From Thioalkalivibrio sp. ALJ21 (GTDB taxonomy: Bacteria > Pseudomonadota > Gammaproteobacteria > Ectothiorhodospirales > Ectothiorhodospiraceae), in NCBI RefSeq assembly GCF_000378605.1, contig NZ_KB905158.1:124001-188000 (forward strand): 64,000 bases of DNA. Reading direction: 5' to 3'. The stretch's first letter is position 1. Every line of letters begins with the position of its first letter. The notes under the pieces are model-generated. The model was not told the origin of the DNA and ran no database searches. It worked only from the letters and a program-made list of their open reading frames with translations. A program made the translations under genes and the position numbers. This document shows positions 2,161-59,103 of this stretch, piece after piece.

Positions 2161-2176
2161 ACGTAAGTGATATGGT
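2161..2176 (+). promoter_or_regulatory. Shared motif site ACGTAAGTGATATGGT
   Basis: Matches 13 of 14 informative positions of GCGTAAGTGATAYNNT. It sits 89 bases upstream of the family-1 gene at 2266. A second, sigma70-type promoter lies directly downstream. Confidence 0.6.
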
Positions 2177-2177
2177 C

Positions 2178-2205
2178 TTGACATCTCGGTGACTGATGGT
2201 ATCGT
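2178..2205 (+). promoter_or_regulatory. Sigma70-type promoter, tandem with the motif site
   Basis: TTGACA (2178-2183), 16-base spacer, TATCGT (2200-2205), starting two bases after the shared motif. Either two start sites serve the gene at 2266, or the upstream motif is an activator site for this promoter. Confidence 0.35.
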
Positions 2206-2265
2206 TTGCCATCACATTCAACGCCCGGCGTTACATGGGCGACCGAGAAAAGTGGGTTAAAAGTC

Positions 2266-3009
2266 ATGCAGGCCATTTTGCTGAGCACCGATGATGTCGC
2301 GGAAACTCCCCAGGCGGGTGGTCGCTCGTTCGCGACCTTGGAAGTGCACACGGAAAACGTGGAGCGCTATTTCCTTCCTCTCATCGCGCATGACCCCAGC
2401 ATTCCCCGGGGGGCGCACGATCGGCTTCGGGAGGCGCTCGATCCTCGCCATACTGAGATTTGCCCGATCGATGCCGCTAGCAATTCGCTAACGCCTACGA
2501 CCCTTATTCGCATTCACAGCCTTCCGACTGACGAAGTGCGCAGCAGGGCGCGCTCCCTGGTTGAGTTCTGCCGGGCCCTAGAGATCGGGTACAACCTGGT
2601 CACATCCGACTTTTCTGATCACTCACCCCGGCACTCTGTGCTCAGGGGCATGCCATCGCATGGTCGGGGCCTCGCTGAAGATGGAGGCGTTGTACCAGCA
2701 GCGGATTGCGGTGGCGCTCGAGATCACGATGCCATGCGGATGTATCACTTCCGGTCCATCTCGCTTGAGGATGCCTTGGCTGTGCATAAGGGGGCGTCTC
2801 CGGTGAGCACTGACCGACGGCTGGGCCATTTTCAAGTCGCAGATGTGAACTATCATGCCAACGCTTCCAGGGGTTCTGCGTTCTATCCTTTTGCCCTCGC
2901 TGCGTGCCGGCGCGCCAACCTCAGAAATGACAGCGGTGTTCGCGACCGAGTCCTCTCCGAAGATCTTCACCACGCCCGGCACCAATTCGAGGCATGCCCT
3001 GGTCTTTAG
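2266..3009 (+). CDS. Family-1 paralogue, unknown function
   Basis: 247 residues from ATG 2266; an in-frame TTG at 2206 overlaps the promoter region and is unlikely. Near the N-terminus, FATLEVHTENVERYFLPLIA carries the family-1 signature (hydrophobic strand, then [FV][DE]xLxxP-like segment) seen in six other proteins of this window (31316, 38686, 42715, 46265, 59582, 60462). The rest is histidine- and acid-rich without recognised motifs. No signal peptide. Likely expressed from the motif/sigma70 pair upstream. Function unknown; I found no match to a named domain. Confidence 0.6.
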   Translation: MQAILLSTDDVAETPQAGGRSFATLEVHTENVERYFLPLIAHDPSIPRGAHDRLREALDPRHTEICPIDAASNSLTPTTLIRIHSLPTDEVRSRARSLVEFCRALEIGYNLVTSDFSDHSPRHSVLRGMPSHGRGLAEDGGVVPAADCGGARDHDAMRMYHFRSISLEDALAVHKGASPVSTDRRLGHFQVADVNYHANASRGSAFYPFALAACRRANLRNDSGVRDRVLSEDLHHARHQFEACPGL

Positions 3010-3106
3010 GTTTCTACTCCAATCCTGAGTTCGTTTCTAAGCTTTGGACTTTCTCGCCCAATAGCGGATATTCTATTCTAGAACCGAAAGCAAGAGGCGG
3101 CCCGAC

Positions 3107-3667
3107 ATGATGGCGAACGAATCCATCAGCAGAGTTTTTGTTTACGCGATCGATGTCTCTAACGGGGAGCTTGAACGGTTCTCTGCGCCGCGCTCGGTCT
3201 TGAGCGCTCAGCACGCATCCGACCCCCGACTTCAGGGGCAGTCCGCCGAACAGATTAAGGCCTGGGTTCTCGATGCGGTATCGCGTAGAGATGGATCCAT
3301 CTCGACAATGGACCCACTGTTTGCGCCCCCGGTCGATGGTGCGAATGATGACGCCCTGGTCCTGCTGATCGGATATCTTGGCTCGCTGCTGGACCGCGAT
3401 GGCCATGGTGAGCCTAAGGATGCGCATGTTGCGGTCTCGTTTTACCGGAATTCTGGATCACATGTGATCTGCGAGCTCGACGCATCAATTCTTGAGGCAT
3501 CCACGCCTCCACCCGGAGGCTACCAGGCGGGCTCTGGATTTCTCGAGACGGAGGACGTTTTCGAGCGCGTTAACCCGGTCATCTTCGCGCGCCTCGGGGC
3601 TGCCAGGGGTCGGCTCGCTACTCCTGACTGGCGAGGGGCGCCCGGATCAATCGAATCGGCGGCTTAA
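3107..3667 (+). CDS. Family-2 paralogue (first of three), unknown function
   Basis: 186 residues, start ATG 3107 (a second ATG follows at once) with AGAGG nine bases upstream. It opens SRVFVYAIDVSNGELERFSA and has a later strand pair DAHVAVSFYRNSGSHVICEL. The genes at 4757 and 5496 share this plan (IFIYTIAPASG...DAHVAIAVYHHRGFESVSVE; VTIHLVDSMSG...EYAVIVYRTSG), so the three are diverged tandem paralogues interrupted by a minus-strand pair. Predicted cytosolic alpha/beta protein; no catalytic motif recognised. Confidence 0.6.
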   Translation: MMANESISRVFVYAIDVSNGELERFSAPRSVLSAQHASDPRLQGQSAEQIKAWVLDAVSRRDGSISTMDPLFAPPVDGANDDALVLLIGYLGSLLDRDGHGEPKDAHVAVSFYRNSGSHVICELDASILEASTPPPGGYQAGSGFLETEDVFERVNPVIFARLGAARGRLATPDWRGAPGSIESAA

Positions 3668-3677
3668 CGCCGCCGAT
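3655..3677. terminator. Hairpin between convergent genes
   Basis: Perfect 9-bp inverted repeat ATCGGCGGC / GCCGCCGAT with a 5-base loop, overlapping the stop codon of the 3107 gene and just past the end of the minus-strand gene at 3684. There is no T-run, so termination in either direction is plausible but unproven. Confidence 0.4.
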
Positions 3678-3683
3678 CGAGCC

Positions 3684-4674: not shown

Positions 4675-4756
4675 TCTATTCGTTCTCAATTTTTGAGCGT
4701 GTTCTTCATATATGGTACTTTTAGTTCATCTGCAAATCAAAGAATAGGCTATCGAA

Positions 4757-6189: not shown

Positions 6190-6205
6190 TCTTAACTGAT
6201 ATACT
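6190..6205 (+). promoter_or_regulatory. Shared motif site TCTTAACTGATATACT
   Basis: 11 of 14 informative positions, with the extended -10 TGATATACT and the downstream TTACGC. It ends 42 bases before ATG 6248 and probably drives the four-gene 6248-8544 operon. Confidence 0.6.
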
Positions 6206-6247
6206 TTACGCTTACCGTTTATTATGAACCCGCATGAGGCCTTTGAC

Positions 6248-6664
6248 ATGAGCCCCAGGATTCGCCAGAGCGCATTTGCCGCTTTGACTCTGTGTTTCGC
6301 ATCCGCAGTTTCCGCCGACCCTTCTGATTCTTTTGTCGAGCTTGGTGATCTCGAGCGCGCGCACATCCAATACGTGCACGCCGAAGCCAAACTCGCGGAC
6401 GAGCTATGGGAGGCATCAAAGGGCGGGGACGCTGATGCAACCTATGCCGCGGCTGTGATGCATGAGAACGGGACCGCGGGCCACCGCAGCCCTGAGCTGG
6501 CGAGACAGCTCTATCGAGAGGCCGCGCAAGCGGGTCACCGGCCAGCACAGATCGCGCTCGCAAGGATGCTGATTGCAGGGTCCGGCGGCAAGCCAGACGC
6601 CTCGGAGGCACTGAAGTGGATGTCCGCAGATTCGTCGGCCGGACGGCCGAGCGGGAAGGACTAA
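6248..6664 (+). CDS. Secreted Sel1-repeat protein
   Basis: 138 residues from ATG 6248, selected over ATG 6224 because GAGG lies eight bases before it. A cleavable signal peptide (MSPRIRQSAFAALTLCFASA, cut near VSA-DP) is followed by about two Sel1-like helical repeats: ADATYAAAVMHENGTAGHRS, PELARQLYREAAQAGHRPAQ and ALARMLIAGSGGKPDASEAL. Sel1 repeats mediate protein contacts, often in signalling or envelope processes. It heads an operon with a PP2C-like protein and two membrane proteins. Two other short secreted Sel1 proteins occur at 30820 and 54027, each behind the same promoter motif. Confidence 0.75.
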   Translation: MSPRIRQSAFAALTLCFASAVSADPSDSFVELGDLERAHIQYVHAEAKLADELWEASKGGDADATYAAAVMHENGTAGHRSPELARQLYREAAQAGHRPAQIALARMLIAGSGGKPDASEALKWMSADSSAGRPSGKD

Positions 6665-8999: not shown

Positions 9000-9015
9000 T
9001 CGTATGTGGTACGGT
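9000..9015 (+). promoter_or_regulatory. Shared motif site TCGTATGTGGTACGGT
   Basis: 11 of 14 informative positions; 40 bases separate it from ATG 9056. Confidence 0.5.
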
Positions 9016-9055
9016 GCTGTCACTCGTAACGTATCAATACGGACGGTCGCGCAGC

Positions 9056-10642: not shown

Positions 10643-10658
10643 GCGTAAGTGATACTAT
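10643..10658 (+). promoter_or_regulatory. Shared motif site GCGTAAGTGATACTAT (perfect)
   Basis: Matches all 14 informative positions and is followed by CAACGCAC, the downstream YGC element. It ends 30 bases before ATG 10689. Best single example of the motif. Confidence 0.75.
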
Positions 10659-10688
10659 CAACGCACTATTCTGGCAGGGAGTCTTGCT

Positions 10689-11744
10689 ATGGGGTGGGAT
10701 CCGGCACCTGAACCTGTTCTGGACGCGTTCCGCGCGGGGCATGACATTGAATTCCAAATCGCAAGCCGGTTTGGCGCAATGAAGGTGACCGGCATCCAGG
10801 CCCCAAACCCCAAGACTGGCGAGATGTACCCATTGCCGGAGAATGTGGACCTGGAGGCATTCGGCGACGTTCTCATGGACATGGTGGCTCACACCGCTGG
10901 GCACAGCTTTGCGGGCGCCGCCACCGCAGACGGGGTGGGCCGGCTTGCCTACTCCCCTTGCTACCAGCAAGCCGACGACCCTCACTTCGGGCTCAGTTTT
11001 CGCATCATCGAAGACAAGACAGGAAAGCAGGCCCATCATGAGAGCTCTTTCTCGATTCCATTTGAGTCTGAGCGCCCGGAAACCTCCCGTCTTGTGCGCC
11101 TCTTGGAGGAGGCGAAGCGTTCGAACCCGGATGCCCTCAAGTGGCATGAGTCAGAGGGCCCAGGCGAGCTCGAATTTCGACTCTATGATGCACCCAATGG
11201 CCGGTCCACGATCAGTCCCGATAGCCCTTTTAGCAGCATCGATTTAAGGCGAGTCGTCGCCGAGCATTACGCCGAAATGGGCGTAAACGAGCCTGAAAGA
11301 ATCGCTTGCTCTGCGGCCTGGTCGCCCGATACCGACCCCGCGGGGCACGACGGAAACCTCGACGGGGGAGGGGTGGTGGTCCAGCTGGGTACCGAAAGGA
11401 CTCCGTCTATGGTGTCGACGTGGGCGCGCGTCCGGTACGCGCGACACCAGACCATCCACCAAACGACGGCACCGGCACGCTGGGATCTCACGGATTTCGA
11501 GAAGATCGGACAGGACCGATTTGCAGCCATTCTTGATGTGTACTTATCCGGCAGTGAACTGCAGCCCATTATTCCCGAGGTAATCCTCTCGGGCGATCGA
11601 CTCCCCCCGGGATACAAGTCAATTACTGAGCGCAGATCGGAGCGATCGGCGGCCATGCTGGAGGCTGCCCGAAACTCCCAGCAGCACGCTTCATGCGATC
11701 CGGCCCAGCCAGCGCCCCCCTCAGGTAGAGCCGTCCGACCATAA
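10689..11744 (+). CDS. Hypothetical protein (351 aa)
   Basis: ATG 10689 has GGGAG seven bases upstream and the perfect shared motif 30 bases before it. Soluble, acidic, no signal peptide. Readable pieces include FAGAATADGVGRLAYSPCYQ, an acidic-helix region SERPETSRLVRLLEEAKR, and a C-terminal strand GGGVVVQLGTERTPSMVSTW. The tail is proline/alanine-rich and ends SGRAVRP, similar in character to other tails here. No domain recognised; single-gene unit. Confidence 0.65.
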   Translation: MGWDPAPEPVLDAFRAGHDIEFQIASRFGAMKVTGIQAPNPKTGEMYPLPENVDLEAFGDVLMDMVAHTAGHSFAGAATADGVGRLAYSPCYQQADDPHFGLSFRIIEDKTGKQAHHESSFSIPFESERPETSRLVRLLEEAKRSNPDALKWHESEGPGELEFRLYDAPNGRSTISPDSPFSSIDLRRVVAEHYAEMGVNEPERIACSAAWSPDTDPAGHDGNLDGGGVVVQLGTERTPSMVSTWARVRYARHQTIHQTTAPARWDLTDFEKIGQDRFAAILDVYLSGSELQPIIPEVILSGDRLPPGYKSITERRSERSAAMLEAARNSQQHASCDPAQPAPPSGRAVRP

Positions 11745-11952
11745 GGATCGAGATCTGCCTACCGAGACATCACACCATGCTCGGCAATGCTCGGCGTCAT
11801 TCTCAAGGCATCCTGATTTTTATGATGTGTTCATAAGTGATATGCTCTTGTTGTTCTAATTGCGGCTTCTGGGGGCGGCTTCCTCGATGCCCGATTCCAG
11901 CTGCTCATAAGGTTTTGGCTTAGCGCCAGACGTACAACCACAAGGAGGGGGC
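11745..11952. other. Promoter region and long leader of the GGDEF gene
   Basis: Contains the shared motif at 11831-11846; transcription from it would give a leader of about 250 bases before ATG 12108, much longer than for other motif-driven genes. I looked for a GEMM-type c-di-GMP riboswitch and did not find its conserved cores. The leader ends in the short ORF at 11953. Confidence 0.4.
11831..11846 (+). promoter_or_regulatory. Shared motif site TCATAAGTGATATGCT
   Basis: 12 of 14 informative positions. Lies 106 bases before the short upstream ORF and 261 bases before the GGDEF gene. Confidence 0.55.
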
Positions 11953-12114
11953 ATGCTCCTTCGGGCGTCACGCACCAACACATTCGGAATAAATCGGAGC
12001 GACTGCAGTGCTTATCGCTCAGAAAGGCGCCCGGCCGCGCCCGGCGGCATCTGCTGCATGCAGCTCCCAGGGGGATGCTTCCGAGGCACAAGAGGGGGTT
12101 CGACACCATGCTAG
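11953..12114 (+). CDS. Short upstream ORF (53 aa) overlapping the GGDEF gene
   Basis: ATG 11953 is preceded by AAGGAGGGGG, the strongest ribosome site of the area, and the frame runs to a TAG at 12112 that overlaps the ATG (12108) of the next gene as ATGCTAG. The peptide is arginine/cysteine/glycine-rich and not protein-like, which suggests a leader whose translation opens or blocks the start of the GGDEF gene rather than a functional product. Translational coupling is inference. Confidence 0.4.
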   Translation: MLLRASRTNTFGINRSDCSAYRSERRPAAPGGICCMQLPGGCFRGTRGGSTPC

Positions 12115-16342: not shown

Positions 16343-16614
16343 TCTCGGGCGGTGGCGGCGTGAACGCCCGGGCACCGTAGCGGGTGTCACGATAAGGGGC
16401 GATATAGTTCCGTTTGTGATCGTTTATAGTCATCGGTTATTTCTTCCGGTTTGCGGGAATACGTGCTCGCCATGGCCTCATCTCAGGGCCGCCACAAGCC
16501 CCGCCTTGCGAACCCTGATCGAAATAGCAGTCGGCCCAGCCCGGCCTTGGCCTAGCAGTATTTATCGCCTACAAATCAACCCGATATGATCGATCCCCCT
16601 GGGGCCTTTTGCCG

Positions 16615-16713: not shown

Positions 16714-16843
16714 TTCTAGACGTTGCGTAAGAGATGCTGCCTATGCTCGATGAGTCGACACGGGTTGCCGCGCAAGATTGGGGCTCCGGGTATTCGACGC
16801 CCGGCGCCTTCCTTCAACGAAGCAAATAAATCAGGGGTTCAGG

Positions 16844-28324: not shown

Positions 28325-28361
28325 TTCCTTTCCCCTGTATGTTCTGCAAGAGGAAGCATAA

Positions 28362-28377
28362 CAGATATCGCTTACGC
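28362..28377 (-). promoter_or_regulatory. Shared motif site GCGTAAGCGATATCTG (minus strand)
   Basis: 12 of 14 informative positions and downstream TTATGC. Lies 38 bases before the GTG at 28324. A weaker plus-strand copy overlaps it, giving an inverted GCATAA...TTACGC arrangement. Confidence 0.6.
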
Positions 28378-28544: not shown

Positions 28545-28560
28545 GCGTAAGATATATCGA
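28545..28560 (+). promoter_or_regulatory. Shared motif site GCGTAAGATATATCGA
   Basis: 11 of 14 informative positions; perfect GCGTAAG half but the TG of the extended -10 is lost. 255 bases before ATG 28816, so it may serve a long leader or an upstream start. Confidence 0.45.
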
Positions 28561-28815
28561 GATTGCATACCAAGTGCAAATCGGATGCCTCGGCCTTCGG
28601 GTCGCATCCATTCCAGGTCACCCGGGAGCCGGGGCGGCCCCAAAGAAGAAAGAGCGTGCGCACGGGGCTACCAGGGCCTCAAAGGCTCGAGCGGTTCGGC
28701 ACCGCTAGCGGCTCCTTATCTCGCAAGCAAGTTGCCACCCAGAGTGAGGCGGCCGGCTTCACGATCAGCGATCGATCGCCCCAAGGTCGTTCGGCAGAAC
28801 TCAGCGGACTTAACC

Positions 28816-30578: not shown

Positions 30579-30594
30579 GCTTAACAGATATACT
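30579..30594 (+). promoter_or_regulatory. Shared motif site GCTTAACAGATATACT, no gene downstream
   Basis: 11 of 14 informative positions followed by GCGTGC. The near-identical TAACAGATATACT core also precedes the Sel1 gene at 54027. A terminator follows after about 75 bases, so this promoter seems to serve a non-coding RNA. Confidence 0.55.
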
Positions 30595-30600
30595 GCGTGC

Positions 30601-30739: not shown

Positions 30740-30755
30740 GCATAAGTGATACCGT
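30740..30755 (+). promoter_or_regulatory. Shared motif site GCATAAGTGATACCGT
   Basis: 13 of 14 informative positions; 64 bases before ATG 30820. Starts 45 bases after the terminator of the putative small RNA. Confidence 0.7.
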
Positions 30756-30819
30756 GACGAGATCCATTCCCGCGGATCACAAGAACGATCCCGACACTAA
30801 CTACAAGGACGACAAGCGT

Positions 30820-34222: not shown

Positions 34223-34320
34223 CGTATCAACCCTCTGTGATGCGCCCGGCTTCGTCGCCTCGCATGCGTTGACGCGGAACCCGCGGAAGGGGCGGTCAGG
34301 CTGGGCTCTTAAACTCAAAA

Positions 34321-34336
34321 AGCATATCACATACCA
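34321..34336 (-). promoter_or_regulatory. Shared motif site TGGTATGTGATATGCT (minus strand)
   Basis: 11 of 14 informative positions, 98 bases before ATG 34222; probable promoter of the 34222-32438 operon. Confidence 0.45.
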
Positions 34337-35594: not shown

Positions 35595-36122
35595 GTGAAT
35601 TTGTCAGCATTTCCAGTCTCGTTCACGCATCAAATAGAGAGCCTGAAAGTGGTCACAAAGAAGTACACCGGCACCATGAGCTTGCCGCTCCCTGTCCAAA
35701 AAAAGGGGCCTGTCGTCCTTATGCCTTCGGTGCGGATCGGCGGCAAGTCGTTGCGGAACCTGCGCCTAAGTCGGAAGCTTTTCATGCGCCTTAGCGAGAT
35801 GGGCGAGAAGGGCATCACCCTCCACCTGCTCAGCAATCATCAGGACGTTCTCGCTATCCAGGGGGAGCGCTGCAGAGAGATCGCCATTGATGGCACCGCG
35901 CTAAGCAGGACCCGCCGATGGGCCTACCTCTGGATCATGACGTCGATGGTCACGTTGGTTTTGTCTGTAGGCTCTCCGGACGTGCCGAGCGTTATGGGCG
36001 TGGTGGCGTTCCCGATGCTTCTCGGGAGCACATACTTCTTCGCCAAGGCGCGCGCCATGCGCACGGCTGCGACCCAGTTGCTTGGCTCAATTGAGGGCGG
36101 TTGGCAAATCCGCTCCGTTTAA
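35595..36122 (+). CDS. Inner-membrane protein with cytosolic N-domain
   Basis: 175 residues from GTG 35595 (or 148 from ATG 35676; the first 27 residues read as protein so the longer form is kept). A soluble N-terminal region with strands PVVLMPSVRIGGKSLRNLRL and DVLAIQGERCREIAIDG, then two membrane segments (AYLWIMTSMVTLVLSVGS; SVMGVVAFPMLLGSTYFF) and a short tail. Unknown function. Confidence 0.55.
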   Translation: MNLSAFPVSFTHQIESLKVVTKKYTGTMSLPLPVQKKGPVVLMPSVRIGGKSLRNLRLSRKLFMRLSEMGEKGITLHLLSNHQDVLAIQGERCREIAIDGTALSRTRRWAYLWIMTSMVTLVLSVGSPDVPSVMGVVAFPMLLGSTYFFAKARAMRTAATQLLGSIEGGWQIRSV

Positions 36123-36870: not shown

Positions 36871-36886
36871 GCGAAACTGATACTGT
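36871..36886 (+). promoter_or_regulatory. Shared motif site GCGAAACTGATACTGT
   Basis: 12 of 14 informative positions plus ATCCGCAC downstream; 29 bases before ATG 36916. Drives the AcaB-like/exonuclease/family-1/HD operon. Confidence 0.65.
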
Positions 36887-36915
36887 ATCCGCACTTAATT
36901 GCGGAGCGTTTTCAG

Positions 36916-37734
36916 ATGAAACCCGATCAAGGTGACGGATACAGCGGCACCGAACGCCCGACCGGGCGCCCCTCGAAATATGTCCAGGAGGAGATTTTCG
37001 TCTACACCCGGATTGGGCGGGACCTGATCGAAGGGCATCGCCCGACTCCATTGGGCGCTGATGGTCGACGCCAGCATATGCTCGTTGGTCTGCCGCTGTA
37101 CGAGAGGAAAGCGCGCCGCTTCTGGTTTGATGCGGCACACGACAACCCTTACGCGAAGCTTTGGATCCAGCGGTGTCGCCTCGGCGTCCAAGAGGCCGGA
37201 ACGGTAATCGACGGCCTCCTGGATCAGGCTGAGGAACGCCTTGGGCGGCGAGGGATGGCTCTAAAGGACCTCCCGTCCGAAACGCCGGTGCATCAGCGCG
37301 GCGTCAAGCTCAAGACCGGTCTCGGCACGCAGATGAGAGACCTGATCAACGATGCCGACCTGCTCGATAGCGCTTGCTTCCAGCTTCACCGCATGGGCGA
37401 CATCAGCAAATATGAGCGCCGCGACCTGCAGTCCCGATATGGCCGGGTAGCTCGGCTTGCCATGCGCAACTGCCTCGGCTACCGGCAGCTGCGGCTCTCT
37501 GCAGAGGATGTCCTCAGGGATCGCGCCGTTGCGCGAGAGGCCAGGGAGGCGATGGGCGATCTGCCGCGGGCTTTTCTTACGATGCCTGGGGATGACGCAT
37601 GGCTAAACCCCGAGCTTGCGGTGGACCGGAGCGAACTTTGTCGGCCAATTAACCCGCAGAAGATTTTCCTAAAGGGTGCCCCCGAACCCCGGGTGTGCTC
37701 TAGCGTGACGCGCGCAATCGCAATGCACCCCTAG
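36916..37734 (+). CDS. AcaB / PFL_4669-like mobile-element regulator
   Basis: 272 residues from ATG 36916; the longer upstream frame is shadow of the exported-protein gene. The order YTRIGRDLIEGHR ... KARRFWFDAAHDNPYAKLWI ... GTQMRDLINDADLLDSACFQ ... GRVARLAMRNCLGYRQLRLS-AEDVL ... AREAREAMGDLP matches what I know of the PFL_4669/TIGR03761 family (DUF1845, AcaB) of integrative conjugative elements and IncC-type plasmids, which keep a 'DDPYAdwwL', 'DYD', 'gYr..gvtreDl' and 'A...mGelP' pattern. AcaB acts as a transcriptional activator in IncC plasmids. First gene of an operon with exonuclease, family-1 and HD genes; start codons are spaced by 25-30 bases. By inference it is a candidate regulator of this replicon. 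Confidence 0.6.
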   Translation: MKPDQGDGYSGTERPTGRPSKYVQEEIFVYTRIGRDLIEGHRPTPLGADGRRQHMLVGLPLYERKARRFWFDAAHDNPYAKLWIQRCRLGVQEAGTVIDGLLDQAEERLGRRGMALKDLPSETPVHQRGVKLKTGLGTQMRDLINDADLLDSACFQLHRMGDISKYERRDLQSRYGRVARLAMRNCLGYRQLRLSAEDVLRDRAVAREAREAMGDLPRAFLTMPGDDAWLNPELAVDRSELCRPINPQKIFLKGAPEPRVCSSVTRAIAMHP

Positions 37735-40142: not shown

Positions 40143-40216
40143 AATTACTTTATAAACGATATCTTATATTTCGCCGTTCTCGCTCTGGACATTTACATTT
40201 CGCCACGGAGTATGTA

Positions 40217-40232
40217 TCGTAAGTTATATTGC
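40217..40232 (+). promoter_or_regulatory. Shared motif site TCGTAAGTTATATTGC
   Basis: 11 of 14 informative positions followed by TTGCGC. 279 bases upstream of the next start (40512), unusually far, with the structured region in between. Confidence 0.5.
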
Positions 40233-40299
40233 TTGCGCTCCACTGTGGCGTCTCGTCCAGCCCCCCAGGAACAAGGGGGGGCTTCGAGCGTAAGCGCTT

Positions 40300-40389: not shown

Positions 40390-40511
40390 CGCATGTGACG
40401 CGTCGGTTTTGTCTTGGGCGTTGCGCGCTTTGTTGGCGCGCCTTCCTGCAAGGCGAGGGCGATGGTTTGCGTCCCTTTGTTTCGATTAATCACAACGTAT
40501 GAGGCATTGTT

Positions 40512-40796
40512 ATGTCAGCTAGTTCTTGTCAGTTGGTCACCGAAGAAGTCGATCCTCCTGTTCACGAATCCGCCGCGGACCAGCAGTCGCTGGAGCTCCA
40601 AGAAGATGTTCAGCGGAACCTCGACATTATTCTACGCCGCAAGAGTGACGGGGCTACCCCGGAGCTCACGGCGCGTGATCATGAGGTGGCGGGGCAGATC
40701 ATTGCGTGGCTGATCTCCGATGAATGCGAAACGCCGGAGGCGGAGTCACTTCGCCAGCGGGTCCTGGATAAGACGTGCACGCAAGAGTGCGGTTAA
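40512..40796 (+). CDS. Hypothetical acidic protein (94 aa)
   Basis: ATG 40512 with GAGG seven bases upstream. MSASSCQLVTEEVDPPVHES..., then LELQEDVQRNLDIILRRKSD and ELTARDHEVAGQIIAWLISD, mostly helical and acidic; ends in KTCTQECG with two cysteines. Precedes the double-Rrf2 gene by 49 bases, probably in one operon. Unknown. Confidence 0.55.
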   Translation: MSASSCQLVTEEVDPPVHESAADQQSLELQEDVQRNLDIILRRKSDGATPELTARDHEVAGQIIAWLISDECETPEAESLRQRVLDKTCTQECG

Positions 40797-40845
40797 TTCA
40801 GGTGGCGCCTGTCGATCATTCAGCAACCTACTGGAGCACCCTCTA

Positions 40846-41763
40846 ATGTTGATCAACGAACGGAGCCTCTACACGTTACGAGTGGCCCTGCAGATCGCCC
40901 ATCACTCGCAATCCCGCTCAGTTCCCACGTCCGAACTGTTGGCGGCGCATGGCTTCAAGGATTCATACCTGTGTTTGCTGACACGAGACCTTTCGGACGC
41001 CGGACTGGTGACCGCAAAGAAAAGGGGCACCTCAAAATACCGTCTCACGCGGCCTGCGAGCGAGGTGTCCGTTGGTGACGTTGTAGCCTCAGTTGAGGGC
41101 GGAAGAGGGCTTTCGTTCGGCGGAGACCCCGAGGCAGATCCTGCATCTGGCCACCCGATTTCCAAGGGCATGAAGGACATGAGCGCCAAATTGAGGGCCT
41201 GGATGGACTCGGTTTCTCTCGAGAGCCTCCTCTCAGAGTCCCACGGAGAGTTTTCGGGGCAGCTCCATGTGGTTCCGGTCGATCACGCCCTCAACACGGC
41301 TGCGCGTGAGCGCGATGCGATTATGGCGTCTGCCTACATCGCCGAGCATGACGACCAGCGCGTCCGGGCTCACACGATCGCGGATTTGCTGGAGCTAAAA
41401 GAGCCCTACGTACTCGCGGTTCTGAGAACGCTTGTGCGTCACTCAGTTCTGGACCGCACGCCTGGAAAGTTCGGCGGCTACAAACTGAAGCGGCCGGCAT
41501 GCGAGCTCAAGGTCTACGATGTGATGAAAGTGATGGCGGATACCAGGCGCTTCCGTGGGGCCACTATCGATCTCTCCATTACGCCCGAGAACGCCCCGGT
41601 ATTCCGCGCCAGCAATGGCTTCATCCATCAGTTTGAGGAGTTCTTCAGGTCGATGACCTTCGCAGATATCCTCGGGCATTCGGTGGACCGCAGGAAGACG
41701 CTGGTGCAGGACCTGAAGACGTCCATCAACAAGCACCACTTCATTTTTGAGCTCCAGCCTTAA
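40846..41763 (+). CDS. Tandem Rrf2-like regulator
   Basis: 305 residues, ATG 40846 with GGAG nine bases upstream. Two Rrf2-type winged-helix domains in one chain: residues about 5-85 (SLYTLRVALQIAHHSQSRSV, PTSELLAAHGFKDSYLCLLT, RDLSDAGLVTAKKRGTSKYR-LTRPASEVSVGDVVASVEGG) and about 160-240 (AIMASAYIAEHDDQRVRAHT, IADLLELKEPYVLAVLRTLV, RHSVLDRTPGKFGGYKLKRP-ACELKVYDVMKVM). Rrf2 proteins normally have one domain and dimerise; here one polypeptide may form a pseudo-dimer. The Fe-S cysteines of IscR/NsrR are absent, so it is not an obvious Fe-S sensor. Confidence 0.72.
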   Translation: MLINERSLYTLRVALQIAHHSQSRSVPTSELLAAHGFKDSYLCLLTRDLSDAGLVTAKKRGTSKYRLTRPASEVSVGDVVASVEGGRGLSFGGDPEADPASGHPISKGMKDMSAKLRAWMDSVSLESLLSESHGEFSGQLHVVPVDHALNTAARERDAIMASAYIAEHDDQRVRAHTIADLLELKEPYVLAVLRTLVRHSVLDRTPGKFGGYKLKRPACELKVYDVMKVMADTRRFRGATIDLSITPENAPVFRASNGFIHQFEEFFRSMTFADILGHSVDRRKTLVQDLKTSINKHHFIFELQP

Positions 41764-41801: not shown

Positions 41802-41950
41802 TCACCCTTCGTCGCATCTATCGCAATCCCTCGCAGGGCCTCGCCGCCCTTCACCCGAGGCCTCGGGTCTTGGCCCATTCATTCATGGGGCCGATACCCC
41901 CCCGCCAGGCCCCCTCGCTCCCCGGTTGATGTCCCTTTCCATGTGCATAT

Positions 41951-41966
41951 ACAATATCACTAACGA
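41951..41966 (-). promoter_or_regulatory. Shared motif site TCGTTAGTGATATTGT, reversed orientation
   Basis: 12 of 14 informative positions plus ATATGC downstream, but on the minus strand with no minus-strand gene following. It lies 22 bases before the plus-strand nuclease start. Either an operator, or the promoter of an antisense RNA reading toward the Rrf2 gene. Confidence 0.45.
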
Positions 41967-44992: not shown

Positions 44993-45928
44993 TTAAGCTT
45001 TATTGGGCCCGCCATCGTTGCCCGCGTCATTATCCTGATCTTGGGCTGGCGCATGATCTTCGGCTGGGATTGCGTCCAGCGCCTCGTGGATCAACGACAC
45101 CTCTTCATGGGTCAGCTCGACCGTTACAGGCTTGGATTCGTCGCCCGTCAAGGTCGAGACCTTCGAGCCAATGACTTGCAGTGCGTTTGTCATCTTTCGG
45201 GCCGCTTTTTTGGGAATTCTTCCCGTTGCTTTTGGGCGCTGATGCCTGGAGTTCGCGCTTTCCAGTTTCTTCCTGGTGAGCCGCCCCTTTCCCGATCGCA
45301 GAACCTCTTCGACGCCATCTTGAAGCATTTCAACGGCCTTTGTGCCGTGCTTCTGATAGGTCTGAAGCGCCAGGGTTGCAGACACCACCTCCTGAGACAC
45401 TAGGTCCTTGATGGCGTCCGGCATGGTGTGCATTTCCAGCGACATTCGTACGTGCTGGGTGGTTTTCCCGACGATCCTGGCGATGTCGTCTTCGGTCTTC
45501 CCTCGGTTCTTCATCCGGCTGTACATCGCAGCCACTTCGATGGGCGTGAGCTTCATGCCCGATTGACTGGTCAACACCAGCGCATCGGCCTCGATCTCGT
45601 CGCCTCGAAACTCGATAACAGGCTGCGGCCCCAGGTCCGCCCCTTCCTCGATCGCTAGAAGCATCGCTCTGCGTCGGCAGTGGCCGTCACGGATATAGAT
45701 CCTCCCGTCGATCACCTGGACGGCGACGGGCTCGACGTATCGTCCGGCGGTGTACGCGTCGGCCAAGGCTCGGATGTGCCGCTTCAGGTCCTCGCGTTCG
45801 TAATCACGAGGGTTGAATCCATTGATCTCATGCAGATCCTTCGGATGAGCATAGAACTGGTTCGATTTGCGGACATCAATCAGCTTGGATCGATGTATCT
45901 TGTCTAGCGACTGCGCAACGTTCTTCAT
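44993..45928 (-). CDS. ParB/KorB-like partition or regulatory protein
   Basis: 311 residues, ATG 45928. ParB/Srx-type N-domain: INGFNPRDYEREDLKRHIRA, PVAVQVIDGRIYIRDGHCRR-RAMLLAIEEG (standing for the GERRxxA box, here GHCRRRA), then a helix-turn-helix region LTPIEVAAMYSRMKNRGKTE, DDIARIVGKTTQHVRMSLEM. A basic linker and acidic tail follow. Divergence in the GERR box makes CTP binding uncertain. No parA lies in the window. Could be partition, or a phage/plasmid regulator of the same fold. Confidence 0.8.
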   Translation of the reverse strand: MKNVAQSLDKIHRSKLIDVRKSNQFYAHPKDLHEINGFNPRDYEREDLKRHIRALADAYTAGRYVEPVAVQVIDGRIYIRDGHCRRRAMLLAIEEGADLGPQPVIEFRGDEIEADALVLTSQSGMKLTPIEVAAMYSRMKNRGKTEDDIARIVGKTTQHVRMSLEMHTMPDAIKDLVSQEVVSATLALQTYQKHGTKAVEMLQDGVEEVLRSGKGRLTRKKLESANSRHQRPKATGRIPKKAARKMTNALQVIGSKVSTLTGDESKPVTVELTHEEVSLIHEALDAIPAEDHAPAQDQDNDAGNDGGPNKA

Positions 45929-48690: not shown

Positions 48691-48746
48691 TATCGCCCTC
48701 TTTGGCGCCTTATTCTCTTATTAGGCTATCACGCGACAGAGACGGA

Positions 48747-48762
48747 ACGATATCGCTTAAGA
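48747..48762 (-). promoter_or_regulatory. Shared motif site TCTTAAGCGATATCGT (minus strand)
   Basis: 11 of 14 informative positions, 57 bases before ATG 48690; probable promoter of the phosphatase operon. Confidence 0.55.
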
Positions 48763-49013
48763 CATGATCTCGGTATTGCCGACGCCCAGCGCCAGCCGAC
48801 CCTTCGCCCCTGTTCCGCGATACGGCCTCAAGACGCTTGGGCGCGGCAGATGGCCGCGCACGCTTAGTTGCGCGCGCCGTTCCGATATGGCCGCAAGGGG
48901 CGCCCAGGCTGCTTGTTCAAGCCGACCCACATGGTCGCATCGCGCAAGAATAAAGAGGTCTCAGTCGAATCTGCCGGGGGTGCTCATCTCGGCCCCGTTC
49001 TGATATGATGCAT

Positions 49014-49029
49014 ACGGTATCACTTTGGC
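49014..49029 (-). promoter_or_regulatory. Shared motif site GCCAAAGTGATACCGT (minus strand, no gene)
   Basis: 12 of 14 informative positions, but points away from fadL and has no gene for over 300 bases. Either an orphan promoter (RNA), a second upstream promoter for the phosphatase operon, or an operator for fadL. Confidence 0.45.
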
Positions 49030-53921: not shown

Positions 53922-53937
53922 TCGTAACAGATATACT
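53922..53937 (+). promoter_or_regulatory. Shared motif site TCGTAACAGATATACT
   Basis: 11 of 14 informative positions followed by ATGTGC; 89 bases before ATG 54027, leaving an AT-rich leader of about 80 bases. Confidence 0.6.
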
Positions 53938-54026
53938 ATGTGCAGTTGGCTGGTTAGCGGGACCAAGCGTCCTTCCGGCGAATACCTTTTTAACCCTTAA
54001 ACACACCTTTATATGGAGACTAAACA

Positions 54027-54533
54027 ATGAAAAAGCTGAGCACTCTTCTGATTTCTTCCACCCTGATGGCCCTGTCCTTCGGCACCGCGAACGCGAACGC
54101 CGCGTGGGACGCAGAGCGCCACGCGTTCGAATCCATTTCCGTAAAGGCTCTGCAGGGTGATGTGTCCGCGAAGACCTCCCTGGGCCATCTGTACGAATCC
54201 GGTATCGGCGTAACCGAGAACCCGGTGCGCGCCCGCATGGCCTACCAAGAGGCCGCGGAAGGCGGAAATGAGATTGCGATGGCTGCGCTCGGCCGGATGT
54301 ACCTTCAGGGCAAAGGCGTGAGCGTTGATCACGCACTGGGAATGCACTGGATGCAGCGCGCGGCCGATGCCGGTCACGTTGGTGCGCAGTACATGGTCGG
54401 CGTCGCCTACCTGGACGGCAAATACATCGGTGCGAACGAGGACACCGCCCTGTACTGGCTGAGCATGGCGGCTGAGAGTGGCCACCAGGTCGCCCGCCAG
54501 CTGCACACGGATTACGTGTCCTTCGCTGAGTAA
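54027..54533 (+). CDS. Secreted Sel1-repeat protein
   Basis: 168 residues, ATG 54027 with GGAG eight bases upstream. Signal peptide MKKLSTLLISSTLMALSFGT, cut near ANA-AW. Three Sel1 repeats: DVSAKTSLGHLYESGIGVTE, ARMAYQEAAEGGNEIAMAAL-GRMYLQGKGVS, LGMHWMQRAADAGHVGAQYM-VGVAYLDGKY. Uses more CTG/GGC/AAC-type codons than neighbours and has an AT-rich leader, consistent with strong expression. Own promoter motif and terminator: a single-gene unit. Paralogue of 6248 and 30820. Confidence 0.85.
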   Translation: MKKLSTLLISSTLMALSFGTANANAAWDAERHAFESISVKALQGDVSAKTSLGHLYESGIGVTENPVRARMAYQEAAEGGNEIAMAALGRMYLQGKGVSVDHALGMHWMQRAADAGHVGAQYMVGVAYLDGKYIGANEDTALYWLSMAAESGHQVARQLHTDYVSFAE

Positions 54534-55744: not shown

Positions 55745-56173
55745 CTAAACGGGAAGGTTCTTGGATCCGACAAGAAGGGGGGATCTGGAGCGCCGCCCCG
55801 AGAGAGCACTCACGACATCCTGGGTGATCCCAAATGTCATCAGCCCGACGACAGAGGAGCCGAGGATCAGCGCAACCCCATACGGCGAAAGTGCCGCCTC
55901 AACGATCGAGAGTCCTCCGGTTTGATCGCCGATAGCCCAGATGCTCCACGCGAGCAAGCCAGACCAAAGAAGCCCAAACACATAGAACCCGCATTCTTGA
56001 CGGTGCACTCGGAGAGCCAGTCCGCTCGCGGACACAGCAATGGCGAGGGCGGATGCTGACCACACCCCCAAGAACGCACTCGAAGCCATCATGGCCCCAT
56101 AGAGCAGGGCGACGGCTGCCGCGAGCGCCGCAGCCGCCTGGTTCCGCGATCGATTCGAGCGTCCCCGGCTCAT
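55745..56173 (-). CDS. Inner-membrane protein (142 aa) coupled to thyA
   Basis: ATG 56173 overlaps the thyA stop by four bases, so translation is coupled. Four hydrophobic segments (ALAAAVALLYGAMMASSAFL; ASALAIAVSASGLAL; FYVFGLLWSGLLAWSIWAIG; YGVALILGSSVVGLMTFG). Basic N-terminus and C-terminus point to the cytosol. Unknown function; association with thyA is only positional. Confidence 0.6.
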   Translation of the reverse strand: MSRGRSNRSRNQAAAALAAAVALLYGAMMASSAFLGVWSASALAIAVSASGLALRVHRQECGFYVFGLLWSGLLAWSIWAIGDQTGGLSIVEAALSPYGVALILGSSVVGLMTFGITQDVVSALSGRRSRSPLLVGSKNLPV

Positions 56174-57126
56174 ACCGCAACCGGCGCCTTGATCGTCGCC
56201 ATCGGCTGGTACCCCTCGATCGAGAAATGATCGATCTTGAAGTCGTCAATTTCTGTCACGCCCGTGTCCATGCGGAGACGGGGAAGGGGGAGGTCGTCCG
56301 GCCGCTCCAGGAGCTCGCTCACCTGGTCGAAATGGTTGTGGTAGATGTGCGCGTCCCCGATCGACCAGACCAAGTCCCCGACGGCATGGCCCGTCACCTG
56401 GGCGATCATCTGGGTGAGCAGCGCATAGGAGGGAACGTTGAAGTACCCGCCGAGAAAAAGGTCCGCCGACCGCTGGTATAGCTGGCAGGAGAGCGCCCTT
56501 GATGGTGCCCCAGCCTCGCTCAGAACCGCGTGCAAGTGATCATCGTCCTGGACCCCGCGCAGATCCAGCGACTCACGCCCCCCGGCGTTCCAGTCAAGCC
56601 ACTCAAGCCGCTGATTCGACGTCATGGGCGCCGAGTAGAACTGGAACAGAACATGGCACGGCGGCAGGGCCATATCACCGCTCTCGACGTCCGACACGTT
56701 CCAGGCGCTCACCAGCATGCGGCGAGAATCCGGGTTAGTGAGGAGCTGGTCGATCACGATCGCGATTTGATCGATACCCCCCGCATGAATCCCCCGGTCA
56801 GGGTCCACCGGAAGCGCGGTCGGCCAAGACCGCCACTGTTTCCCGTAAATCGGCCCAAAGGTGCCGTCATCCTTCGCCCACTCGTCCCAGATGTGGTTCT
56901 CATGCTCATGTAGATAGGCGATGTCTGGATTCCCTTTCAGGAACCACAGTAGCTCGGTGGCGATGAGCTTGAAGGGCACGAACTTTGCGGCTTCCAGCGG
57001 AAATCCCTGCCGGAGGTCGAAGCGCTGCTGAGCCCCGAACACACTGCGGGTTCCCGTCCCAGTTCGATCGGGGCGGTCCACCCCGTTTTCCATTACGTTT
57101 CGGAGCAGTGCGTGCATCTGTTGCAT
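56170..57126 (-). CDS. thyA: Thymidylate synthase ThyA with internal insertion
   Basis: 318 residues against 264 in E. coli. dUMP to dTMP using methylene-THF. Recognisable: DRTGTGTRSVFGAQQRFDLR, WFLKGNPDIAYLHEHENHIW-DEWA, GPIYGKQWRSW, catalytic Cys157 in MALPPCHVLFQF, LSCQLYQRSADLFLGGYFNV-PSYALLTQMIAQ, GDAHIYHNHFDQV and C-terminal IKAPVAV. About 45 extra residues (166-210) separate the Cys strand from SCQLYQRS. Its promoter carries a 13-of-14 shared motif 31 bases upstream, so it belongs to the replicon-wide regulon. Possibly supports dTMP supply for replicon replication. Confidence 0.95.
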   Translation of the reverse strand: MQQMHALLRNVMENGVDRPDRTGTGTRSVFGAQQRFDLRQGFPLEAAKFVPFKLIATELLWFLKGNPDIAYLHEHENHIWDEWAKDDGTFGPIYGKQWRSWPTALPVDPDRGIHAGGIDQIAIVIDQLLTNPDSRRMLVSAWNVSDVESGDMALPPCHVLFQFYSAPMTSNQRLEWLDWNAGGRESLDLRGVQDDDHLHAVLSEAGAPSRALSCQLYQRSADLFLGGYFNVPSYALLTQMIAQVTGHAVGDLVWSIGDAHIYHNHFDQVSELLERPDDLPLPRLRMDTGVTEIDDFKIDHFSIEGYQPMATIKAPVAV

Positions 57127-57145: not shown

Positions 57146-57173
57146 GCGTAAGCGGATACAATAGCACTTACGC
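57146..57173. promoter_or_regulatory. Divergent overlapping shared motifs at thyA
   Basis: Minus strand GCGTAAGTGCTATTGT (57158-57173, 13 of 14) points to thyA. Plus strand GCGTAAGCGGATACAAT (57146-57162, one extra base before a TACAAT box) points to the small gene at 57247. Their GCGTAAG parts form an inverted repeat GCGTAAG...CTTACGC with 14 bases between, indicating that GCGTAAG itself is a recognised half-site. Confidence 0.7.
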
Positions 57174-57453: not shown

Positions 57454-57477
57454 CGTCGATTCGCTTCCCACGGTGTA

Positions 57478-57493
57478 ACGTAAGTGATACGGT
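57478..57493 (+). promoter_or_regulatory. Shared motif site ACGTAAGTGATACGGT
   Basis: 13 of 14 informative positions followed by AATCGCAC; 31 bases before ATG 57525. Confidence 0.75.
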
Positions 57494-57524
57494 AATCGCA
57501 CATTCTTCGACACGAGATCCGGAC

Positions 57525-58463
57525 ATGACCAGCCGACCAGCCATTGCCTCCGGGCAGAGTGATGACTACCGCGAGAAGCTTCTTGCTCGGGCCTCCAAGA
57601 AGGGGTCTGAGATCCGTTTGAGCAAGTATCCGGGGGCGGACGGCAAGCGCAGGATCTACCGGGTTCAGTCACGCCCAGGTGGGCATGGTGCCAGTGGGGC
57701 CAAGCCGGGCCGCCTCTCGGATGCCGATATGGCCTCGATCTCTGCAGCAAACATGCACACTCCGGCTGGCTATAGCGTCCGAGCCGAGGGCTCCATCTTG
57801 GTTCTTTCGGGGCCATTCAGCCGCACCCTGCATGCCGACATCAAGGCGATTGGGGGCCGGTGGGATGGGAAGCAGGGGGAAAATCGGCGCGTTTGGATGG
57901 TGCCCGCTGGAAAAGGCCTCGACCTTGAACGAGTCCTGTGGGAGCGCATCCTTAGGGAGCGAGGGATTGATCGAGAGACCTCCAGTCCGCATGAGGTCGC
58001 AACCCAGTGGCTCCATTTCCTGGAAGCCTCTCTCCATGACGGAACGATCGAACCATCTCATTTTCTCGAGGCTCAACCGCGGGTGACTCGATTTGAGGAT
58101 CTGGCTCCCCGGTTTGACGACCTCGTGAGTCGATACGACCTATCCACGTCAGCCCCCGGATTCCACTCGATGTCCGAGGAAGAGGTGGCTGAGCGGGTGG
58201 CAAACCGAAGCATTGTTCGCGGCATTGCGCCGGCACTTCGGGAGCCCGCACAGCTGGGCGATCGCTGGGTTGTCTACGAATTCATCGGGATTCCATTCAA
58301 CCTTGAGAAGCGCCACTGGGTCCGCGAAGACGGCACCCCCTTGCCTGGCGTTGTTACCGGCCGGGCACAATTCGCCTACCACCGACCAGCGACTCATGAA
58401 GAGATCAGCGCATGCCAGGCCTCGGTTACCGCGAACGAGGGCAGGCTCCGGCGACGGATGTGA
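57525..58463 (+). CDS. Hypothetical protein with DUF5710/HARP-like motif, R-M tail
   Basis: 312 residues from ATG 57525. The segment ILVLSGPFSRTLHADIKAIG-GRWDGKQG...RRVWMVPAGKGLD (about 75-120) resembles the DUF5710/HARP-like unit (aiKalGgRWd...W.vP) found in plasmid primases, helicases and antirestriction proteins. An N-terminal basic region SKYPGADGKRRIYRVQSRPG precedes. The C-terminal half is helical. Ends EGRLRRRM. May bind nucleic acid. First gene of a pair with 58502. Confidence 0.55.
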   Translation: MTSRPAIASGQSDDYREKLLARASKKGSEIRLSKYPGADGKRRIYRVQSRPGGHGASGAKPGRLSDADMASISAANMHTPAGYSVRAEGSILVLSGPFSRTLHADIKAIGGRWDGKQGENRRVWMVPAGKGLDLERVLWERILRERGIDRETSSPHEVATQWLHFLEASLHDGTIEPSHFLEAQPRVTRFEDLAPRFDDLVSRYDLSTSAPGFHSMSEEEVAERVANRSIVRGIAPALREPAQLGDRWVVYEFIGIPFNLEKRHWVREDGTPLPGVVTGRAQFAYHRPATHEEISACQASVTANEGRLRRRM

Positions 58464-58501
58464 TCGGCGCCCCAAGACACTCATCACTACGGAGATAGAC
58501 C

Positions 58502-59077
58502 ATGACGACAGAACAAGACACCTCGAAAGACCTTCTGGGGCGGGAATTGGCAGCGCGTTTTTTCAGGGGGGAGATCGAGTTTGAATTCACGATCAACGGA
58601 TCTGGAGACAGCGGCTCGGTGGTCGAGGCGCTCGTTTCGCCTTCGCCGTTTCATGTCGGAACCTCAACCGAAGCGCCGTCCTGCTCGTTCGTGGAGGAGC
58701 TTGGGGTGCTCGCCGAAGATCGACACTGCGATCTATTTCCAGGTTGGGAGGTTGATGAAGGTTCGAATGGATCTGCGACGCTGCGTGGGGACGCTGCGGC
58801 TTTCGCCGAAGGTCGCCTAGGGGTCACTGCCGTGAGCGAATCGGCCTTTGGCGAGGATACCCTTGTCGCGGGGAGCGAAGATGAAGGCAACGCCGTGTAC
58901 GAGACCGAGTTTGGCGAGCCGCAGCGCGAAAACTGGACCCTGAGCGAACAGGAAATCCTGGATTCTGGCATTGCCGATGCGGCGGCCTTTGCTCGCGCTC
59001 AATCAATGGCCGAAAGAATGAACAGCAACGCCTCCCCATCCCCAGCCGCCGCCAGCCCTGCGCGCCCGAGAATGTAG
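58502..59077 (+). CDS. Hypothetical acidic protein with RPRM tail (191 aa)
   Basis: ATG 58502 with GGAG seven bases upstream. Strongly acidic with repeated E/D/G/S stretches; LLGRELAARFFRGEIEFEFT near the N-terminus and NWTLSEQEILDSGIADAAAF toward the end. The last 12 residues, alanine/proline linker plus ARPRM, resemble the other tails of the neighbouring genes. Co-transcribed with 57525. Unknown. Confidence 0.6.
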   Translation: MTTEQDTSKDLLGRELAARFFRGEIEFEFTINGSGDSGSVVEALVSPSPFHVGTSTEAPSCSFVEELGVLAEDRHCDLFPGWEVDEGSNGSATLRGDAAAFAEGRLGVTAVSESAFGEDTLVAGSEDEGNAVYETEFGEPQRENWTLSEQEILDSGIADAAAFARAQSMAERMNSNASPSPAAASPARPRM

Positions 59078-59087
59078 CGCGAATTAA

Positions 59088-59103
59088 CCATAAGTGGTAT
59101 TGT
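59088..59103 (+). promoter_or_regulatory. Shared motif site CCATAAGTGGTATTGT
   Basis: 11 of 14 informative positions with TCTTGCG downstream; 59 bases before ATG 59163. Appears to drive the eight-gene run to the window end. Confidence 0.55.

Follow-up and report, generated by a model that had tools for sequence, protein, structure and literature searches.

A stretch of 64,000 bp from Thioalkalivibrio sp. ALJ21, referred to here as the window, corresponds to bases 124001-188000 of contig NZ_KB905158.1 (C4). C4 is a replicon of 289,720 bp and 60% G+C within a genome of 2.96 Mb in five contigs (C1-C5), and it carries about 75 copies of one private near-palindrome of about 24 bases, which lie over promoter -10 boxes in about one-third of the gaps between its genes. 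The element is probably a palindromic operator of about 24 bp placed over the -10 region of sigma70 promoters and read by a single plasmid regulator, for which a tandem Rrf2 protein encoded in the window is the favored candidate and which would most likely repress.

An earlier note on the window had proposed a replicon-wide, promoter-like element of about 17 copies, and the sequence is indeed present at all 19 places that it listed. In leave-one-out matrices, 18 of these 19 sites score 15.5-25.8 bits, and the one at 49014 scores 6.8 bits. When a matrix built from the 19 sites was applied to the part of C4 outside the window, 41 matches of at least 12 bits were intergenic (34,100 bases) versus 4 in coding DNA (191,620 bases). 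Equal rates in the two kinds of DNA had been named beforehand as the outcome that would speak against the element; instead, intergenic DNA is strongly favored. At the same threshold, this matrix finds 4 matches in a 327,114-bp sample of C1-C3 and C5. A simple pattern search gives a similar distribution: GCGTAAGTGATAYNNT, with at most two mismatches, occurs 29 times in the whole genome, 26 times on C4 (290 kb of the 2.96 Mb), twice on C1, and once on C2; the reversed control pattern occurs 9 times. A matrix refined on C4 has 92 matches of at least 14 bits on that replicon, all 92 intergenic, a number that is informative only by comparison with its controls, since the matrix was trained on C4 itself; the controls are a mean of 4.3 matches in Markov sequence and a single match in the 327-kb sample. 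Furthermore, blind expectation maximization on intergenic DNA recovered the motif in all of the best 8 of 60 random starts. The top result (TttCgTAAGTGATATtGTtT.tgCatt-like) reaches 22.1 bits, and Markov-shuffled gaps reach 13.7 bits. With matches at most 15 bp apart merged and a threshold of at least 13 bits, C4 holds 77 sites, 25 of them inside the window. Six of the latter (4706, 16410, 16725, 35607, 40150, and 40495) had not been listed. The replicon-wide element is thereby confirmed as real, although the original list was incomplete.

These controls also bear on whether the motif could be an artefact, either a dispersed repeat or an effect of base composition. The motif is A+T-rich in a replicon of 60% G+C, so A+T-rich gaps could favor it. 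However, Markov-shuffled gaps yield nothing similar, convergent gaps are empty (see below), the other contigs are near background, and conservation ends at the borders of a 26-bp element, a weak -35 aside. An artefact is thus refuted by the controls and retains almost no credibility.

The placement of the sites relative to genes points to promoters. Among the 182 gaps of at least 40 bp, 60 contain a site. The 19 convergent gaps are empty, and sites occur in 39 of the 133 tandem gaps and in 21 of the 30 divergent ones; these counts inherit the errors of the home-made caller from which the 293 called genes of C4 derive. This caller leaves the starts of genes in doubt, along with a handful of the small genes themselves (2257-2451 is one). 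When sites are oriented by the matrix, 65 of the 77 point at the next gene, and the remaining 12 precede a gene that lies on their opposite side; in 44 of the 65 gene-facing sites, the predicted start lies within about 150 bases of the gene. It had been stated that most of the sites point at their genes. This is the case in co-directional gaps for 36 of 48 sites, but the other 12 are opposed to the gene, a few of which may depend on doubtful gene calls. It had also been stated that the sites at 41951 and 49014 have no gene behind them. Genes do exist there, a nuclease homologue at 41989 (+) and a FadL-like gene at 49146 (+), facing away from the better-scoring strand of the site. The suggestion that one promoter-associated element with an extended -10 would unite the thyA, Sel1, phosphoesterase, GGDEF/EAL, and AcaB-like genes in one regulon holds up.

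Alignment of the 77 sites gives conserved columns from about motif position -1 to 25, TTKCRTAWGTGATAYNGTTTNYGCAT, and beyond this 26-bp element there is only a weak -35. Positions 8-16 form an extended -10 (TG-A-TAYNGT; TGATAYNGT), which places the predicted +1 at position 23; this base is A in 49 of the 77 sites. It had been reported that no consistent -35 is seen. In support of this, the -35 is weak: 4-5 of the 6 TTGACA bases are matched in 16 of 77 sites, versus about 7 expected, and 3 or fewer in the other 61. Nevertheless, TTGACA likeness, measured with a rough self-made matrix that played no part in motif building, is highest 17 bp upstream of the -10 (z 4.6; 2.7 at 18 bp and 2.5 at 16 bp), with nothing comparable at the mirror position, and the best -35 at 15-19 bp exceeds windows farther upstream (p 5e-5). 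The extended -10 together with the -35 peak at 17 bp makes the host sigma70 holoenzyme the natural reader. A dedicated sigma factor encoded by the plasmid, which the earlier note had offered as one explanation, finds no support, as the 7 Sigma70_r2 matches in the genome are confined to C1-C3 (sigma54 was not searched). The same note had also considered a polymerase that reads a long one-way consensus, and the length of the element (about -23 to +1) would suit a single-subunit, phage-type RNA polymerase. No PF00940 match was found in the genome, a weak argument given that control genomes gave none either; also against it are the sigma70-type -35 and -10 features and the arrangement of the outer blocks as the halves of a dyad. 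Such a polymerase is therefore highly improbable.

The outer blocks, which had been described as a GCGTAA block before the -10 and a YGC block after it, read best as the two halves of one dyad, TnCGTAA-N10-TTACGCA, around the extended -10. The dyad is centered between positions 11 and 12 (11.5), where the symmetry is 2.24 versus a mean of 0.49 (standard deviation 0.42) over 52 centers. A symmetric matrix, which uses half the free columns, predicts held-out sites equally well; at 12 bits or more, it finds 43 intergenic, 1 coding, and 1 chromosomal match, versus 41, 1, and 3 for the asymmetric matrix. The 26 tandem sites of at least 18 bits, when oriented by their genes rather than by the matrix, have the consensus TnCGTAAGTGATATnGTTTACGCA, and just 17 of these 26 agree with the gene, a polarity as low as that of a palindrome. 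In addition, several sites score highly on both strands.

It should be noted that other features of the alignment weigh against a symmetric operator. Within a site, the two halves show no covariation (362 pairs are complementary, if anything fewer than the 382, standard deviation 10, obtained after shuffling). When the outer pairs alone are considered, the dyad center leads narrowly, with 1.15 versus 0.90 for the next center, and 36.4% of the outer pairs are complementary at this center, compared with 33.6% at the next and a median of 25.3%. Pairs 7/16 and 8/15 are anti-symmetric. This anti-symmetry is expected because the -10 is directional in its TG and its final T, but together with the agreement of 36 of 48 tandem sites with their genes, it indicates that the conservation is partly directional.

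Such directionality would suit an activator-dependent promoter or one of altered specificity, at which CRTAAG (-21 to -16) is contacted by a plasmid factor that offsets the poor -35 and switches the regulon on. The combination of an extended -10 and, for most sites (the 61 of 77 above), a poor -35 is as this model would have it, as is the prevalence of gene-facing tandem sites, and a related plasmid, pTK9001, has its own directional, replicon-wide, promoter-like element, whose tandem sites, 40 in number, all point at the gene. Against it are the dyad in the consensus, the 12 opposed tandem sites, the lack of a Sigma70_r2 protein on C4, and the fact that the conserved blocks straddle the -10 and extend to +1, which is an unusual location for an activator. 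We regard this model as unlikely.

Taken together, these results have led to a model in which the operator TnCGTAA-N10-TTACGCA covers about -23 to +1 of sigma70 promoters having an extended -10 and, for the most part, a weak -35, and in which a single regulator, encoded by the plasmid itself, occupies this operator in about 60 gaps across the 290 kb. Since this regulator would cover the -10 box, it most likely represses; when bound across -23 to +1, it would exclude RNA polymerase, much as KorA does on RK2. The plasmid would then be quiet in a settled host, would give a burst of expression upon entering a repressor-free cell, and would finally come under negative feedback, by analogy with R388.

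Regulators that might bind the element were sought by eye and with Pfam on part of the 293 called genes of C4. The favored, unproven candidate is the product of the gene at 40846-41763, a protein of 305 residues that has two Rrf2 modules in one chain. The whole chain matches above the curated cut-off, and each half alone matches rrf2_super (1.2e-16 and 3.8e-13) below it; the halves are 22% identical to each other over 95 residues, and the closest solved chains by sequence are those of IscR. The three other Rrf2 matches above the cut-off in the genome are all on C1 and all single-module. Three sites (40150, 40217, and 40495) lie upstream of the two-gene operon (40512-41763) that ends with the tandem Rrf2 gene. 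In the proposed model, the two fused winged-helix modules would act as a single-chain pseudo-dimer, and the protein would control its own operon through these three sites.

Several points count against this assignment. An upstream site is common (60 of 163 non-convergent gaps), which makes autoregulation of the Rrf2 operon weak evidence, and multiple sites are found elsewhere too, for example, in the region before the TrfA-like gene. An AlphaFold prediction of the tandem protein, run without an alignment, has a predicted local distance difference test (pLDDT) score of 37, so the pseudo-dimer is a proposal from sequence. A homologue spanning both halves was found neither in 25 plasmid records and 9 phage records nor in samples of 369 genomes of the class and 47 of the order, in which the matches from 12 other genomes of the class are single-module. 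In genome and viral contigs, none was confirmed by a single-protein search, which reaches close relatives only. Among the genomes searched, the motif and the tandem Rrf2 protein occur together only in the source genome.

The same dyad and promoters could also be read by another protein, namely, the AcaB-like protein (36916-37734), the product of g24 (C4 24310-25293), or a plasmid protein that has escaped recognition. This alternative, which we consider a minority possibility, shares the operator reading with the tandem Rrf2 model, and the confidence placed in the two overlaps for that reason. The AcaB-like protein, which the earlier note had put forward as an activator, matches PF08900, and the center of a site lies 34 bp upstream of its gene; g24 has a weak HTH_3 match and is preceded by a divergent gap with a 15.3-bit site. 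As the Pfam scan covered part of the C4 proteins, an unrecognized regulator is also possible. On the other side, AcaB-like and g24 each have one site in the preceding gap compared with three for the Rrf2 operon, and pTK9001 encodes an AcaB homologue without having the motif. The latter finding weakens the case for the AcaB-like protein, which is still a candidate, given that 33% identity permits a changed specificity. In its own right, the g24 protein (327 residues) appears, as judged by eye, to have two similar helix-turn-helix halves, and would be a second, possibly duplicated, regulator on C4.

Other proteins were considered and set aside. At the three chromosomal Rrf2 loci read, the sole motif match of at least 6 bits (7.0 bits) is inside a coding region. 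For the KorA-family protein g94, C4 has 0 copies of TTTAGCTAAA, which we take to be the KorA operator, and there is no site directly before the gene; g95, which precedes g94 in the same direction, has a 13.7-bit site. The gene of the KorB-domain protein g145 likewise has no site directly in front, and for both g94 and g145, sites are found in front of genes farther upstream in the same direction. The dyad at C4 240669 falls past the 3' end of g231, which encodes a small protein, rather than upstream of it. A ParB protein has a likelier binding site elsewhere: ten identical copies of TTAGCGCGCGCTAA at C4 82360-84468, outside the window, lie close to parAB-like genes and form a centromere-like array, probably parS.

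The coordinates of the sites and genes in the window are collected in Table 1. Downstream of the dyad at 40217 and ahead of the gene at 40512, the sequence CCTGAAGAGTGC and its complement form an inverted repeat (window 40305-40316 and 40373-40384), which is part of a longer stem; there is no further copy of this 12-mer on C4, and the repeat is a possible attenuator of the regulator operon.

Table 1. Sites of the dyad element and associated genes in the window. Positions are counted within the window; site coordinates denote the 22-bp dyad core.
Feature	Position	Strand	Details
Site	2161..2182	+	21.6 bits
Site, previously unlisted	4706..4727	+	23.6 bits; -35-like TTGAGC at 17 bp
Site before Sel1-repeat gene 6224-6664 (PF08238)	6190..6211	+	24.0 bits
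Site before gene 9056-10591	9000..9021	+	17.1 bits
Site before gene 10689-11744	10643..10664	+	23.4 bits; other strand 18.1
Site before PAS-GGDEF-EAL gene 12108-14501 (PF00990, PF00563)	11831..11852	+	18.6 bits
Weaker site, previously unlisted	16410..16431	+	15.3 bits
Weaker site, previously unlisted	16725..16746	+	13.9 bits
Two-strand dyad between gene 27848-28324 (-) and ATP-grasp open reading frame (ORF) from 28543 (+)	28356..28377	.	24.7 bits (+), 23.9 (-)
ATP-grasp ORF	opens 28543	+	R2K ATP-grasp PF18299
Second site of ATP-grasp region, overlapping the first possible start of the ORF	28545..28566	+	19.3 bits
Site before Sel1 gene 30754-31302	30579..30600	+	14.9 bits; -35-like TTGGCA at 18 bp
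Second site of Sel1 gene 30754-31302, overlapping the called start	30740..30761	+	14.1 bits
Leftward site	34315..34336	-	21.2 bits
Weaker site, previously unlisted	35607..35628	+	15.6 bits
Site before AcaB-like gene	36871..36892	+	19.6 bits; -35-like TTGTCA at 18 bp
AcaB-like regulator, rival candidate binder	36916..37734	+	PF08900, E 9.8e-21
Dyad, first of three before operon 40512-41763	40150..40171	.	19.9 bits (-), 16.5 (+)
Dyad, second of three before operon 40512-41763	40217..40238	+	23.7 bits (+), 18.0 (-)
Site, third of three, overlapping the called start at 40512	40495..40516	+	15.9 bits
Gene of 94-residue protein, preceding tandem Rrf2 gene	40512..40796	+	no Pfam or NCBIfam match
Tandem (fused) Rrf2 protein, favored candidate binder	40846..41763	+	PF02082, E 1.1e-30, two stretches
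Top-scoring site, before SNase homologue from 41989 (+) (PF00565)	41945..41966	.	28.5 bits (-), 19.3 (+)
KorB-domain protein (g145), considered but not favored	44993..45928	-	PF08535, E 1.5e-6; no site directly in front
Site before calcineurin-like phosphoesterase gene 47743-48690 (PF00149)	48741..48762	-	17.8 bits
Weak dyad before FadL-like gene from 49146 (+) (PF03349)	49008..49029	.	13.7 bits (+), 13.4 (-)
Site before Sel1 gene 54027-54533 (PF08238)	53922..53943	+	23.6 bits
Site before thyA 56170-57126 (PF00303, E 2.5e-99)	57152..57173	-	21.1 bits; -35-like ATGACA at 17 bp
Site before gene 57525-58463	57478..57499	+	21.1 bits; -35-like TTCCCA at 17 bp
Rightward site	59088..59109	+	23.7 bits

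The gene content of C4 suggests what kind of replicon bears the element. It encodes a TrfA-like initiator, a KorA-family protein (g94, PF16509), and, by Pfam, a KorB-domain protein; other C4 proteins match the ParA and ParB annotated on pTK9001; and for its conjugation ATPase, the best matches among the plasmid records listed are annotated as IcmB (about 38% identity). On the basis of these features, C4 is read as a large conjugative plasmid. An IcmB search of genome contigs gave no confirmed match. The first 80 bases of C4 are identical to the last 80, which makes circular closure plausible, yet these ends are composed of short tandem repeats, and the inference consequently rests on a repeat. 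Separately, 42 of the 293 called proteins, otherwise unlike, have a basic C-terminal tail of the type R-x-R-[LMI] or a similar one, RPRL and RPRM being frequent; in the window, these are encoded by the genes starting at 38686, 57525, 58502, 59582, 60462, 62332, and 63533. The tail occurs in 0 of 314 called proteins in a sample of the other contigs, a comparison made with a pattern defined after inspecting the tails. Given the IcmB-type conjugation system of the plasmid, the tail could serve these proteins as a common signal for export or sorting.

In searches of relatives, the motif pattern CRTAWGTGATAYNNT has 11 matches in the source genome versus at most 2 in any of 368 other genomes of the class; a stricter pattern has 6 matches in the source genome and 0 in 46 other genomes of the order; and a search of viral contigs with two exact motif patterns gave no match. 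The plasmid pTK9001 (240,256 bp, Thioalkalivibrio sp. K90mix) is the only plasmid record that matches the C4 AcaB-like protein. It matches 48 of the 293 C4 proteins (E at most 1e-4, some of them partial), at up to 89% identity, among them AcaB-like (33%), ParA, ParB, and the helix-turn-helix regulator g258 (53%). No match to the tandem Rrf2 protein was found on it, and no Rrf2 product is listed in its gene table, which is incomplete. On pTK9001, the C4 motif does not rise above background, with 4 matches of at least 14 bits, 3 of them coding. A blind search of this plasmid revealed instead a different element, ARAAATCGACAG-N10-TTCGnTAnnCTGG, with 51 matches, 47 of them intergenic; apart from the gene-facing tandem matches cited above, 9 lie in divergent and 2 in convergent gaps. 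At 12 bits or more, its matrix matches C4 nowhere and the 327-kb sample 3 times. This element looks like a promoter with an altered -35. Another repeat on pTK9001 is CCGGCCCGAAGCCGG, which forms a hairpin and precedes a stretch rich in purines. Of its 31 matches, 29 are intergenic; 28 run along the tandem gene direction and 3 lie in divergent gaps. It is perhaps a 5' leader element.

For genes present on both plasmids, 25 of the 48 orthologue pairs were compared (at least 38% identity over 100 residues; sites at most 350 bp upstream). A C4 site precedes 9 of these 25, the pTK9001 element precedes 7, and both are found before 4 (g98, g142, g207, and g272), an overlap for which no excess beyond chance is claimed. 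A further hypothesis, which we advance tentatively and hold to be unlikely on balance, is that the large plasmids of this group each brand their promoters with a private element and a private regulator, and that shared genes adopt the element of the resident plasmid. On C4 this would be the tandem Rrf2 protein with its approximately 75 operators, and on pTK9001 the unrelated ARAAATCGACAG-N10-TTCGnTAnnCTGG.

The closest parallel to the favored model is found on RK2. KorA binds seven RK2 sites located in the -10 region and acts in negative feedback (PMC3199767). In both cases, the operators of a plasmid regulator would lie at the -10, the C4 dyad being centered inside the extended -10 of the predicted promoters, and C4 too encodes KorA-family and KorB-domain proteins and a TrfA-like initiator. 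The cases differ in scale, as RK2 (60 kb) has 7 KorA and 12 KorB sites, whereas C4 (290 kb) has about 77 sites, that is, about ten times the KorA sites on a plasmid five times larger, or roughly double the density. They differ as well in that the C4 KorA gene lacks a motif site directly in front. R388, with its ArdK/KorA/StbA network, provides another example of plasmid-wide control, which is reported to consist of repressors only, with negative feedback (PMC3937220). That network comprises six repressors and 15 active promoter regions, in contrast to one motif in about 60 gaps on C4, and the likeness drawn here is one of control logic.

Among Rrf2-family regulators (NsrR, IscR, and RsrR), NsrR binds as a dimer to a 23-bp consensus, the central 7 bp of which have no base-specific contacts in three complexes (PMC9338935). 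An uncontacted center fits the C4 arrangement, a 24-bp dyad with two outer blocks around a free core and a candidate binder with two Rrf2 modules. Two differences stand out: the matching solved chains have 141-170 residues, whereas the C4 protein is a plasmid-borne fused tandem of 305, and the 24-bp C4 sequence is unmatched to any known Rrf2 motif. The half-sites TGCGTAA and TTACGCA also make up the putative operator of the Streptomyces TetR-family protein SGR3979 (PMC3511530). They are identical to those of C4, but the spacing is 3 rather than 10 and the protein family is another one, and the identity is taken as coincidence.

No description of the element was found in the literature, whether by its core sequence or half-sites or in work on Rrf2, AcaB, or networks of plasmid repressors, in a search with most subscription papers outside its reach. 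Within that literature, the operator sequence, its scale, and the architecture of the candidate regulator are new, and the control logic is already known, since plasmid-wide control by one repressor has been described for smaller plasmids with a handful of operators. On C4, 60 of 182 gaps, lying before metabolic, replication, signaling, and unknown genes, share one private operator-like dyad over the -10. If the fused tandem Rrf2 protein is indeed a single-chain pseudo-dimer, it would represent an unusual regulator architecture. The finding of another element, distributed over the whole of the sister plasmid, hints that branding may be a recurring strategy, which, if true, would allow a plasmid to control its genes as one block wherever it goes. 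If one regulator reads all of the sites, a single protein would set both the cost and the entry burst of a whole megaplasmid, and a knockout of this regulator would directly test whether such control makes large plasmids tolerable.

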